NCBI RefSeq assembly: GCF_030684675.1
Contig: NZ_JAUXXZ010000016.1
Span: forward strand, 1-64,000
Direction: 5' to 3'
From: Daejeonella sp.
GTDB lineage: Bacteria > Bacteroidota > Bacteroidia > Sphingobacteriales > Sphingobacteriaceae
Length of the DNA: 64,000 nt
Part shown: piece after piece, positions 29,618 to 56,573 of the stretch
Layout: the number at the start of each line of letters is the position of its first letter
Position numbering within the stretch: the first letter of the stretch is position 1
Translations under genes and position numbers: made by a program
Notes under the pieces: generated by a model
Seen by the model: the letters and a program-made list of their open reading frames with translations, nothing else
What the model was told of the DNA's origin: nothing
Database searches by the model: none

Positions 29618-29671
29618 TTGAGAGTGGAGAATTATTAGCTTCATTCTCAACTCTCCACTCTCAATTATCAA
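29618..29671. repeat. Heptad-type repeat forming a 13-bp inverted repeat
   Basis: TTGAGAGTGGAGA (29618-29630) is the exact inverse of TCTCCACTCTCAA (29652-29664), loop 21 bases. Both arms are made of seven-base words (TTGAGAG TGGAGAA; TCTCAAC TCTCCAC TCTCAAT TATCAAC). It sits between the convergent S9 peptidase and ispE genes and could stop transcription from both sides. Same family as the repeats at 39215, 48081 and 56446. Confidence 0.8.
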
Positions 29672-29673
29672 CT

Positions 29674-30477
29674 TTATACATAATAAACCTTATTTTCCTT
29701 CTCCAGTTGCGGCAATTTCAGCGCCTCCTCAAATATTCCGTAAACCGATGAACCGCTGCCGCTCATTGAGGCGTAAAGGGCACCGGACTCATACAATACA
29801 GCCTTTACTCGGGCAATCGCAGGATATTTTGAAAATACTGAAAGTTCAAAGTCGTTTTTGATATGTAATTTCCAATCCTCTATTGGAAGTTTGATCAGCT
29901 CGGTTAAGGGAGTAGAAACCGGAGCAGCACGAACGCCCTGATAAGCCTCTGCGGTCGACACCTGCACATCCGGCATCACCAATACAATGAAATAATTGCT
30001 CAGATCCAGATCCAATGGACTCAGCTGATCTCCCTTTTCAAGAGCATAAGCCGGCTTATTCTGAATAAAAAAAGCACAATCAGAACCAATTTTTGAGGCA
30101 TATTGCTCCATTTTGGAATTTTCCATACGCAGGCTGAATTTTTGATTCACTAGCCTGATGAAAAATGAAGCGTCTGAAGATCCACCTCCCATTCCGGCAC
30201 CAATTGGAATATGTTTGTGTAAATGAATACTGACCGGAGGCAGCTCAGTGAAATCTTTTTTAAGCAAATGATAGGCTTTCAGACAAAGATTATCATCTGC
30301 ATTCCCCGGAATATTTACGCCAGAGGAACTAAAATTTAGCTCATCAGCCTCGATCACCTCCAGGGCATCTTTGATTGCGAGGGGATAAAAGATCGACTCC
30401 AGATTATGGTATCCATCAGCGCGCTTACTGATAATATTTAAGCCTATATTGATCTTAGCATTCGGAAAAAGAATCAT
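29674..30477 (-). CDS. ispE: 4-diphosphocytidyl-2-C-methyl-D-erythritol kinase
   Basis: GHMP kinase of the non-mevalonate isoprenoid pathway. 267 residues; NAKINIGLNI at residues 6-15 with K8, the ATP-binding PIGAGMGGGSSDA (91-103) with D102, and the C-terminal MSGSGSSVYGIF loop. Convergent with the S9 peptidase, divergent from thyA. The enzyme implies the organism uses the MEP pathway. Confidence 0.96.
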   Translation of the reverse strand: MILFPNAKINIGLNIISKRADGYHNLESIFYPLAIKDALEVIEADELNFSSSGVNIPGNADDNLCLKAYHLLKKDFTELPPVSIHLHKHIPIGAGMGGGSSDASFFIRLVNQKFSLRMENSKMEQYASKIGSDCAFFIQNKPAYALEKGDQLSPLDLDLSNYFIVLVMPDVQVSTAEAYQGVRAAPVSTPLTELIKLPIEDWKLHIKNDFELSVFSKYPAIARVKAVLYESGALYASMSGSGSSVYGIFEEALKLPQLEKENKVYYV

Positions 30478-30548: not shown

Positions 30549-30583
30549 AAAGCATAAAGCTGAAAGCAAAAAGTTGAAAGTAC
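30549..30583. repeat. AAAGCNN heptad repeat, five units
   Basis: Five consecutive seven-base units: AAAGCAT AAAGCTG AAAGCAA AAAGTTG AAAGTAC. It lies in the thyA leader, 28 bases before the start. Same family at 47984-48032 and, reversed, 39278-39305. Confidence 0.8.
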
Positions 30584-39214: not shown

Positions 39215-39264
39215 TTGAGAGTGGAGAATTGAGAACCGATAGCTATCGGGTTGACAGTTGATAA
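39215..39264. repeat. Heptad-type repeat with a 14-bp palindrome
   Basis: TTGAGAG TGGAGAA TTGAGAA (39215-39235), then CCGATAGCTATCGG (39236-39249, perfect palindrome), then TTGACAG TTGATAA. It starts at the base after the HMG-CoA lyase stop. Confidence 0.8.
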
Positions 39265-46706: not shown

Positions 46707-47280
46707 ACAGATTATTCAGTTTGACCAGAATTTATTCTTTGGCATCAATCAGGGCCTAAGTAATTCTTTTTTCGACTGGCTTATGCCAGCTTTAAGAAAC
46801 CGCTTTTTCTGGACTCCTCTTTACTTGTTCATTGTAATCTTTTTAGTAAGAAACTATGGTAAAAAAGGCTGGCTTATCCTGCTGTTTACTATACTAACCT
46901 TTGGTCTGACAGATTATTTTTCATCCTCAGTAATCAAACCCACTATTGAACGATTAAGACCATGTAATGACCCCGAGATTAAAAAAGAAGTCAGAAATCT
47001 CATTGCCTGTGGCAGTGGTTACAGTTTCCCTTCATCTCATGCAGCTAACCATTTTGGATTAGCTGTATTTCTAATCCTCGTTTTCTATCGTAAATGGAGG
47101 TTAATTCTGCCAATTGGCTTATTCTGGGCTTTTTCTATCAGCTTTGCCCAAATTTATGTCGGTGTACATTTCCCTCTTGACATAATGGGAGGAGCTATTC
47201 TGGGTTCTATGATTGGATATGTAATGAGTACAATTTTGATGGTGAATAAATCATTTAAAGCATGGGGATCTGGGAATTAA
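46699..47280 (+). CDS. PAP2-family membrane phosphatase
   Basis: 193 residues, about five to six membrane helices. The three phosphatase motifs are present: KPTIERLRPC, PSSHAAN, and the later HFPLD with YVGVHFPLDIMGG. Likely undecaprenyl pyrophosphate or lipid A/phosphatidate-type phosphatase. Starts inside the methyltransferase stop and overlaps the ZIP gene by 19 bases. Confidence 0.9.
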   Translation: MFEQIIQFDQNLFFGINQGLSNSFFDWLMPALRNRFFWTPLYLFIVIFLVRNYGKKGWLILLFTILTFGLTDYFSSSVIKPTIERLRPCNDPEIKKEVRNLIACGSGYSFPSSHAANHFGLAVFLILVFYRKWRLILPIGLFWAFSISFAQIYVGVHFPLDIMGGAILGSMIGYVMSTILMVNKSFKAWGSGN

Positions 47281-47975
47281 TTTTGCTATTCAGCAGCTCC
47301 ATGCTGGGTGGCCTGGGGATCTTTCTTCTAAAGACGGATAACACCAACCGTCTGAAACTGGTATTGTCTTTCAGTGGAGCCTATCTGTTTGCCATTACAA
47401 TCTTACACCTCATGCCGGATGTTTATCATTCGGGGAACCCGGAGATCGGTTTATATATTCTGGGGGGCTTTCTGCTTCAGATTGTGATGGAACAGTTTTC
47501 TGAGGGTATAGAACACGGCCACATCCATAAGCACAATCATCAACACTATGTTTTCCCGATTGGGATCATGGCAAGTTTATGCTTACATGCCTTTCTGGAA
47601 GGGATGCCTTTAGCTCAGAAACAGCATAATGAGCTTGTTTTTGGAATTGCCCTTCACCATATACCGGCCGCCTTCGCACTGGGGAGTGTTCTGATGCAGA
47701 ATAATTTAGGCAAGACCAAGGTCATCGGATTACTAATTCTTTTTGCTGCTATGAGTCCGATGGGCTATTGGTTAAGCTTTGAGATTGGCAGAGGATCGAT
47801 AGGTAATATAGATGCTTATTTCGATCGGATTATGGGAGTAGTTATTGGCATATTCCTTCATATTTCAACTACAATCCTATTTGAATCGAGCGTAGATCAT
47901 AAATTTAATCTTAAGAAAATGGCTGCAGTACTGCTTGGTATCGGTATCGCACTGATTGGGTTTTATTTACACTAA
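47262..47975 (+). CDS. ZIP-family metal transporter
   Basis: 237 residues with about seven to eight membrane helices. TM2/4/5-like metal-site residues: ILHLMPD, HAFLEGMPL and ALHHIPAAFALG, and a histidine-rich loop (HGHIHKHNHQH, about residues 86-96) typical of ZIP proteins. Imports Zn2+ or Fe2+ probably. Overlap with PAP2 implies translational coupling. Confidence 0.88.
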   Translation: MGIWELILLFSSSMLGGLGIFLLKTDNTNRLKLVLSFSGAYLFAITILHLMPDVYHSGNPEIGLYILGGFLLQIVMEQFSEGIEHGHIHKHNHQHYVFPIGIMASLCLHAFLEGMPLAQKQHNELVFGIALHHIPAAFALGSVLMQNNLGKTKVIGLLILFAAMSPMGYWLSFEIGRGSIGNIDAYFDRIMGVVIGIFLHISTTILFESSVDHKFNLKKMAAVLLGIGIALIGFYLH

Positions 47976-47983
47976 TTAAGCTA

Positions 47984-48032
47984 AAAGCAGAAAGCTCAAA
48001 GCCAAAAGCTTAAAGCCGAAAGTTAAAAGCAG
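47984..48032. repeat. AAAGCNN heptad repeat, seven units
   Basis: Seven contiguous heptads: AAAGCAG AAAGCTC AAAGCCA AAAGCTT AAAGCCG AAAGTTA AAAGCAG. Eight bases after the ZIP gene stop. Confidence 0.9.
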
Positions 48033-48080
48033 GAATTTCCGATTTCGAAGAAAATTTATTATATTAAGTACGCATTTTTC

Positions 48081-48246
48081 AACTGTCAACTGTCAACTGT
48101 CAACTGTCAACTGTCAACTGTCAACTGTCAACTGTCAACTGTCAACTGTCAACTGTCAACTGTCAACTGTCAACTGTCAACTGTCAACGGACAAACTGTC
48201 AACTCTCAACTCTCAACTCTCCACTCTCCATTTTCAATTATCAACT
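48081..48246. repeat. AACTGTC tandem repeat (15 perfect copies) with degenerate tail
   Basis: 48081-48188 is 15 perfect 7-base units plus three bases. After GGACA, degenerate units follow: AACTGTC AACTCTC AACTCTC AACTCTC CACTCTC CATTTTC AATTATC AACTAAA, to about 48246. It lies between ZIP and a convergent MarR gene. Copy number is likely to vary between strains (slippage). Confidence 0.97.
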
Positions 48247-48251
48247 AAATC

Positions 48252-48701
48252 CTATCCTCTCATCTTATCAAGCAATCCACTTAAGGTATGGGCCTCTTCA
48301 TCGCTGATATTTTTGGAAAGCAGATCCTTCAAAGAGACTTCATTATCGAGTTTTTGAAGGATATCCAAACCCTTTTGACTGATCAGGATATCCACTGCTC
48401 TTCGGTCCTTATTGCTGACACATCGTTTAACAAGGTCCTTCTGTACCAGACGCTCAACAATTCTGGAGGCATCAGACATTTTATCAAGCATACGTTCTTT
48501 CAGGATGTTTACCGTTGCCGGATTTGGGTACTGGCCTCTTAAAATTCTCAAAATATTGTATTGCTGGAGCGTAATACTATGTTTATTGAGCTTTAATTTG
48601 AGTAAATTGGTTATCCATCCGTAGGTATATATCAGGTTTACAACCACTTTCTGATGATTATCCTCAAATTTTTTGTTGTAAATTTCCTTTTCTATTTCCA
48701 T
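48252..48701 (-). CDS. MarR-family transcriptional regulator
   Basis: 149 residues, winged helix: TVNILKERMLDKMSDASRIVERL recognition region and KRCVSNKDRRAVDILIS wing. Its 3' end abuts the heptad repeat array. No partner gene can be assigned; it points away from the DUF5522 operon end (72-base gap). Confidence 0.88.
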   Translation of the reverse strand: MEIEKEIYNKKFEDNHQKVVVNLIYTYGWITNLLKLKLNKHSITLQQYNILRILRGQYPNPATVNILKERMLDKMSDASRIVERLVQKDLVKRCVSNKDRRAVDILISQKGLDILQKLDNEVSLKDLLSKNISDEEAHTLSGLLDKMRG

Positions 48702-54387: not shown

Positions 54388-54472
54388 GTTGGATGCCTGG
54401 CTTTACGCCACAAAAGTAGTAAAAAATGTTGTTTTAATTATTCATAATGGTTTGTAATAGTTTTTCTTAAAA

Positions 54473-54514
54473 CCTGTTACCCGTTACCTGTTGTCAGATG
54501 TCGGATGTCAGAAA
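54473..54514. repeat. Degenerate heptads (CCTGTTA / TCGGATG type)
   Basis: Six seven-base words: CCTGTTA CCCGTTA CCTGTTG TCAGATG TCGGATG TCAGAAA. In the divergent gap between the dehydrogenase and the ABC exporter. Confidence 0.65.
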
Positions 54515-56445: not shown

Positions 56446-56542
56446 AGGAAATGGAGAATGGATAATGGGATTTTGTTCAATGGCTAAAATCCACTGTCAA
56501 TTATCAATTTAATTCTCAACTCTCCATTCTCAACTATCAACT
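56446..56542. repeat. Heptad-type repeat (TGGAGAA / TCTCAAC)
   Basis: Left: ATGGAGAATGGATAATGGG from 56451. Right: CACTGTCAATTATCAAT and TCTCAACTCTCCATTCTCAA then CTATCAACTG. GAGAATGGA (56454-56462) is inverse to TCCATTCTC (56523-56531). Just after the ABC gene stop. Confidence 0.75.
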
Positions 56543-56573
56543 GAAATCTGTTTTTGTTCAAAAAAAAATCAAT

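Follow-up and report, generated by a model that had tools for sequence, protein, structure and literature searches.

Two arrays of different seven-base repeats stand side by side between a pair of convergent genes in Daejeonella sp., and one of them comprises 15 perfect copies of its unit. The locus lies in a stretch of 64,000 nucleotides, referred to here as the window. The ZIP-family transporter gene (47262..47975, + strand; ORF with Pfam Zip PF02535, E 1.4e-21) is bordered at its 3' end by an AAAGCNN array (47978..48032, + strand), read on the sense strand. After a degenerate half unit from 47978, its seven units start at 47984, 47991, 47998, 48005, 48012, 48019, and 48026 and end at 48032, the sixth being AAAGTTA. 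A unique spacer of 48 bases (48033..48080, no strand), recognisable by reading in the near relatives G010, G007, G018, and G008, separates this array from 15 perfect heptads (48081..48185, - strand) that read AACTGTC on the + strand and GACAGTT in the sense of the MarR gene. These pass into a degenerate tail (48186..48246, - strand) consisting of AACGGACA, AACTGTC (48194), three AACTCTC units, CACTCTC, CATTTTC, AATTATC, and AACT (to 48246), which ends 5 bases before the stop codon of the MarR-family regulator gene (48252..48701, - strand; ORF, Pfam MarR_2/MarR). Both arrays are also detected by TRF, and the arrangement given in the initial annotation, AAAGCNN seven times, a 48-base gap, and AACTGTC 15 times with a degenerate tail, is present as described, the AACTGTC copy number being that of a draft assembly. 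Exact period-7 runs in the window reach up to 103 matches, compared with 6–11 in 20 mononucleotide shuffles, and other periods from 4 to 12 reach exact runs of at most 10 in the real window. Together the two arrays fill the spacer, each forming the 3' flank of one gene.

Related repeats recur in the window and throughout the genome. A GAGAGTT-type array lies at the 3' end of a minus-strand ORF (29639..29679, - strand), a further AAAGCNN array at 30549..30580 (+ strand), and an AACTCTC-type array mid-spacer at 56508..56543 (no strand); at a period-7 tract with GTTACCY/ATGTCRG units (54471..54513, no strand), the relative G010 has other sequence. A sample of 830,627 bases from the window's genome (G000; draft, 4.25 Mb, 84 contigs) contains 88 period-7 tracts, whereas periods 6, 8, and 9 yield 7, 12, and 8. 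The heptads are tandem, intergenic, and dispersed over many contigs, with 68 of the 88 tracts outside ORFs, where periods 6, 8, and 9 give 0, 11, and 7 tracts (831 kb), in line with the genome-wide excess of period 7 that had been proposed from the window. ORF calls come from a simple script that takes the longest ORF of at least 80 aa, and start positions are accordingly rough. Over the whole genome, three consecutive AAAGCNN units occur 48 and 28 times on the two strands (control 0 and 0). The corresponding search for MAYTNTC gives 104 forward and 107 reverse hits (control 19 and 0), a control of limited value, since the reversed AACTGTC is one of its own rotations; among the matches listed, MAYTNTC in three units is present in 16 of 31 genomes, this one included. 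Samples of 20 to 80 kb from relatives peak at period 7 outside ORFs in G003 (16 tracts), G010 (11), G015 (7), and G031 (4), and contain no or one period-7 tract in G013, G005, G001, G016, G014, and G004.

The arrays are placed close to genes and have a direction. Among spacers of at least 30 bases in the G000 sample, 46 of 429 hold arrays, divided into 16 of 61 convergent, 26 of 284 tandem, and 4 of 84 divergent spacers. A comparison of array positions with gene ends, as suggested at the outset, gives a median distance of 5 nt from the ORF end for 63 arrays, versus 32 nt for random placement within the same spacers, and none of 1000 permutations is as close; 5 of the 68 tracts outside ORFs were not assignable to a spacer and are left out. 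The G-richer strand of these 63 arrays reads away from the nearer ORF in 51 cases, in the opposite direction in 8, and in neither in 4, the AAAGCNN array of the window being one of the ties. The arrays of four relatives agree (30 of 34 outward, 2 opposite, 2 ties). Counting only border arrays, i.e., those at most 25 nt from an ORF end, in eleven sampled genomes, 67 of 76 have G>C outward, 5 have C>G, and 4 are equal; the C-poor strand thus reads away from the ORF. The word AGT is found outward in 49 of the 76 and inward in 2, and GAGA outward in 27 and inward in none. Neighbouring tracts are ordered G-rich then C-rich in 16 of 28 pairs and never in reverse, with 12 uninformative. The polarity holds at both starts and stops, and array-free flanks in G000 are skewed mildly in the same sense at starts and hardly at all at stops. 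A palindromic arrangement was rejected as cause of the polarity, since single arrays are polar too (22 outward and 4 inward in Bacteroidota). The border arrays comprise 45 different consensus heptads, related ones counted separately. Many heptads thus occupy gene borders by similar rules. The two families in the ZIP-MarR spacer, each bordering the 3' end of one of the convergent genes, are no peculiarity of this locus.

G019, from another family of the class, lacks polarity towards the nearest ORF: 9 arrays have G>C outward and 8 have C>G. Its arrays lie mid-spacer, at a median of 86 nt, and the four close opposite-strand pairs among the matches listed run minus then plus. In G024 all five stop arrays follow the rule and the sole start array goes against it, and one of two usable arrays in G021 is against it. 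One set of the fetched stretches was picked at listed matches and not at random.

The initial annotation likened the heptads to those of cyanobacteria, in a different phylum, and the AACTGTC unit itself bears this out. Exact stretches of four AACTGTC units amount to at least 119 in named genomes (49 accession prefixes); of the 119 listed, 100 are cyanobacterial by title, 14 belong to Bacteroidota, and 5 to others. Among the matches listed, GACAGTT reads outward in 99 of 114 arrays of at least three units outside ORFs, after 51 of 165 were set aside as lying inside an ORF call or lacking two neighbours, and the median distance to an ORF end is 17 bases versus about 60 at random; a slightly different filter gives 101 of 111 outward. 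For the cyanobacterial arrays listed, 92 of 106 are outward. Since the loci are not independent (119 stretches, 49 prefixes), they were also counted by genome, and of 29 cyanobacterial genomes among the matches listed, 22 have an outward majority, 4 an inward one, and 3 are tied. Background skew at the listed loci has the same sign and is weaker (175 to 103 at stops, 184 to 134 at starts). An opposite arm accompanies only 2 of 111 listed arrays within their spacer; nearly all are single, and polarity accordingly needs no second arm. The inward cyanobacterial genomes among the matches listed, with one array each (L060, L074, L076, L107), are of Dolichospermum, Gloeocapsa, Tolypothrix, and Calothrix, and perhaps the polarity rule differs in this group. 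Rho sites were considered as a cause of C-rich RNA pointing into ORFs, and dropped because cyanobacteria, which are not known to possess Rho, follow the rule as well.

Comparison of related species reveals how the arrays change. The ZIP gene is matched in all 20 same-genus genomes, the MarR gene in 18 of 20, own genome included, and the two are convergent neighbours in 17. Judged by eye, the spacer of G010 (ZIP 97% identical) has a short AAAGCNN array, three AACTGTC, and three AACTCTC units, that of G007 (ZIP 96%) AAAGCNN and three AACTCTC, and those of G018 and G008 AAAGCNN with few AACTGTC. GTTATAG-like units and AACTGAC occur in G009, G002, and G017, GTTTTAC-like units with an inverted arm in G031 and G003, AAAGTTT with an inverted arm in G015, and a short AATATTG stretch in G005; the other eight spacers contain no clear heptad array by eye, and G004 has a plain hairpin (z -3.6). 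At this spacer, many species thus retain place and period with changed letters, and among the sampled genomes only the lineage of the window has the 15-copy run. More generally, the arrays often preserve their place, period, and direction between related species as one heptad gives way to another. The proposal of a recent local expansion of AACTGTC agrees with the orthologous spacers of two near relatives, which hold 3 and 0 copies, compared with 15 + 1 here. The proposal that the tail words match dispersed repeats elsewhere is partly right: similar words are found at 29639-29679 and 56508-56543, but the tail heptad is one of several that interchange at this position between species. Among 74 orthologous spacers of G000 and G010, counted only where the sampled G010 DNA matches both flanks, G010 has a period-7 stretch for 10 of 12 that bear an array in G000, versus 2 of 62 that do not. 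In at least four spacers the heptad differs between the two genomes and the adjacent unique sequence is alike by reading; the swap involves both arms at C1:146375 and in the rpoB-rpoC spacer, and one side only at C1:114080 and C1:107442. Other long near-perfect arrays, of ACTGATT, AGACCTC, and CAATACT (L243, i.e., G003 C3 5368-5450; G000 C9:8537-8636; C29:10404-10488), indicate that recent long arrays with different heptads exist elsewhere.

The rpoB-rpoC spacer measures 63 to 110 bases in the 19 of 20 same-genus genomes where the rpoC start was found. By reading, most of these spacers are made up of two inverted heptad arms (least clear in G014, G005, and G001), of types AAAGCNN, GTTATAA, GTTGTAC, GTTTTGA, GTTGTTA, GTATCAA, GTATTTA, and others. 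Period 7 is top-scoring in 17 of 19, the exceptions being G005 and G014, and 18 of 19 are predicted to fold strongly (z -3.2 to -7.0; G014, z -0.5). For 13 representatives chosen by eye, one per left-arm type, the own arms pair at a mean of -24.6 kcal/mol, compared with -14.5 when permuted, and none of 20,000 permutations is as good. In the full 19 x 19 matrix of arms, the own right arm ranks first in 3 cases, second to sixth in 15, and 12th in G014; first place is rare because families are common to many species and some foreign arms pair more strongly. An alignment of the 13 spacers, which is rough and has rows that differ much, contains 15 pairs, 13 of them with two-sided changes. Several stems are ladders of six pairs and one mismatch, and seven is the commonest spacing between single mismatches (9 of 18 gaps). 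In other genera, 76 further genomes matched, and 29 of their loci were retrieved; 13 of these are predicted to form a strong hairpin (z at most -3.6), and two spacers are too short to fold. The period-7 score of these strong hairpins is at most 14/21 in 11 and 16 in two, and the hairpin may therefore be older than the heptads, which we infer became its building material in this genus.

Our preferred reading, to which we assign a probability of about 0.5, is that slippage and template switching make and homogenise the heptads at gene borders, that selection sets the place and direction in which they survive, and that slippage has recently expanded one such border into the 15 AACTGTC units. Copy number would change by slippage in steps of seven bases, and matched arms could arise when template switching, a process known for quasipalindromes, copies one inverted arm onto the other. 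Most arrays would be tolerated rather than used. Their survival beside ORFs may reflect the protection of promoters and terminators in the rest of the spacer, and the surviving direction would keep G-containing signals (Shine-Dalgarno-like, -35-like, or structured RNA) from facing the ORF; heptad arms would be retained as stems wherever a hairpin is required. Neither slippage nor template switching predicts the period of seven or explains the exchange of whole families, and the simultaneous swap in both arms at C1:146375 and in rpoB-rpoC is hard to obtain by stepwise slippage.

It is fairly unlikely that the arrays are purely neutral slippage tracts, tolerated where the DNA is otherwise empty, with hairpins and polarity as side effects of composition. 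Their spotty presence in the genus, the few long perfect expansions of different heptads, and the weaker same-sign skew of background ORF flanks are as such a process would leave them, but the polarity of the border arrays lies far above that background, array positions are kept between G000 and G010, and arms are matched across species in rpoB-rpoC.

An interpretation of all arrays as functional RNA hairpins, i.e., terminators or guards of mRNA 3' ends, with heptads as the stem style of the genus, is also unlikely. The strong rpoB-rpoC hairpins fit it, as do two-armed spacers with strong predicted folding at C29:85815 (z -10.3) and C29:42538 (z -7.4), and the array of the window, which folds at -47.5 kcal/mol on MarR-sense RNA compared with -17.7 on antisense RNA; the GACAGTT array alone is predicted to form a ladder of six pairs and one mismatch on the MarR-sense RNA. 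For the whole spacer, the + strand folds worse than shuffles (z +1.7) and the - strand better (z -3.8). Against this interpretation, spacers with arrays have no clear excess of structure (z < -3 in 11 of 36, versus 16 of 80 drawn at random from array-free spacers, all of 60–300 nt), an opposite arm is almost always lacking in the listed AACTGTC arrays, and six-base self-complementarity is not enriched among the 45 consensus heptads (0.40 versus 0.39 permuted). Border arrays fold better outward than inward in 24 and worse in 10 of 48 cases on the stop side, and in 12 and 2 of 20 on the start side, a slight advantage for which G-U pairing alone can suffice. A role as all-frame stop-codon arrays was tried and rejected, with 237 stops in 52 stop-side arrays compared with 206 +/- 18 (maximum 271) when heptad columns are permuted. 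Rfam 15 gives no match at gathering score in the window, L261, or L256.

Mobile cassettes or MITE/REP-like elements that bear the arms and supplant one another at fixed sites are quite improbable. Such elements would account for heptad swaps at one position beside unchanged unique sequence, and for the recurrence of families across many loci. However, arms of different loci have no common core (by eye; 12 loci in G000, 6 in G003), a single arm can be exchanged alone (C1:114080), and the unique middle of the ZIP-MarR spacer is kept where the array lengths differ. REP and BIME palindromes are intergenic, dispersed, and hairpin-forming (PMC3733652), and REPs have a conserved palindromic sequence and end tags; the present arrays combine a free sequence with a fixed period, and a conserved unit is absent, with 45 different heptads and arms that differ between loci. 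A templated, telomere-like end addition that writes heptads at breaks near genes, its C-poor strand growing 3'-ward from the ORF, would suit the outward polarity at starts and stops, also in single AACTGTC arrays, and a period that stays as the sequence changes, but is very improbable, as healing of one break would not give the unique sequence between two arrays.

STRR sequences are heptamer repeats of heterocystous cyanobacteria. The present arrays resemble them in being seven-base tandem units located between genes at many sites per genome, and the cyanobacterial AACTGTC arrays among the matches listed have the same place and polarity as those described here. Unlike STRR, many heptads are present at once, they are exchanged at kept positions, and they form two-armed hairpins, in a host that belongs to Bacteroidota (Sphingobacteriales) and not to cyanobacteria. 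Heptads of this kind have also been noted in Xanthomonas and Beggiatoaceae. According to PMC4692102, which also mentions Calothrix heptanucleotides, the GGGNATC heptads of Xanthomonas and GGGGA(C/T)T heptads of Nostoc have period 7, are intergenic, lie near ORF ends, and form G-quadruplexes, and for GGGNATC the nearer ORF is, following Rehm and others, almost always 5' of the repeat. The border arrays described here follow this polarity rule as well (67 of 76). GGGNATC carries GGG in every unit, whereas AAAGCNN, GACAGTT, GAGAGTT, and in all 43 of the 45 consensus heptads (read cyclically, by eye) lack it, which excludes quadruplexes as a general explanation of the polarity. The quadruplex idea was built on a single G-rich type of heptad; as heptads without G runs lie at gene borders in the same orientation, the cause of the rule must be a different one.

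TAACTGA repeats, as described in PMC4679880, occur in Beggiatoaceae, cyanobacteria, and five Bacteroidetes, between genes and in several heptads within one spacer. Their length differs mostly in sevens between two Cyanothece strains, and relatives of Gramella and Aequorivita have orthologous spacers without the repeats (PMC4679880). In Flexibacter litoralis they are forward before starts and reverse after a stop, which is the orientation that the polarity rule predicts, and a Microcystis sample shows no clear orientation to starts (PMC4679880). That work deals with one heptad, in contrast to the many found here, and the available parts of PMC4679880 and PMC4692102 describe no swapping of heptads at fixed positions with matching arms. 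The kind of heptad is thus already known from cyanobacterial STRR, GGGNATC, and TAACTGA, and its exchange with matched arms seems to be new, the literature searched being mainly open-access.

The heptads of several phyla could represent one phenomenon, a possible but doubtful reading in which a sequence-indifferent process of period 7 would write and rewrite C-poor heptads outward from genes, with hairpin structure kept and the letters free, as in rpoB-rpoC. As the units in an arm are alike, a hairpin could slip, grow, or copy arm to arm without loss of pairing. If so, the cell would keep a structure whose letters are replaceable. The rpoB-rpoC spacer offers a clean test case, a single spacer in 19 species with 18 strong predicted hairpins and exchanged letters, and makes the questions of why seven bases and why gene ends accessible to experiment.

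Some minor observations concern other repeats. A 16-base palindrome, CCCGATAGCTATCGGG, has 18 exact places in the genome and lies within or beside some heptad arrays as if inserted (G000 C21:74541 and C9:19142; the window at about 39236-39250, with 15 of 16 bases); it is also found in the ZIP-MarR spacer of G008, and as a variant in that of G018. At G000 C9:18452-19225, GTTGTCT and TAACTGG heptads in opposite senses lie inside a called ORF that may be a false ORF over a repeat-rich spacer. AAAGC heptads are present within long ORFs at G000 C14:1137-10136 and C77:31053-33477 (L169, L170), which by reading comprise several copies of related genes, apparently sensor kinases. Finally, positions 1937-2171 of the window combine other periods, with TAGGATTAG (period 9) and a 93-base unit containing AATCAC words.
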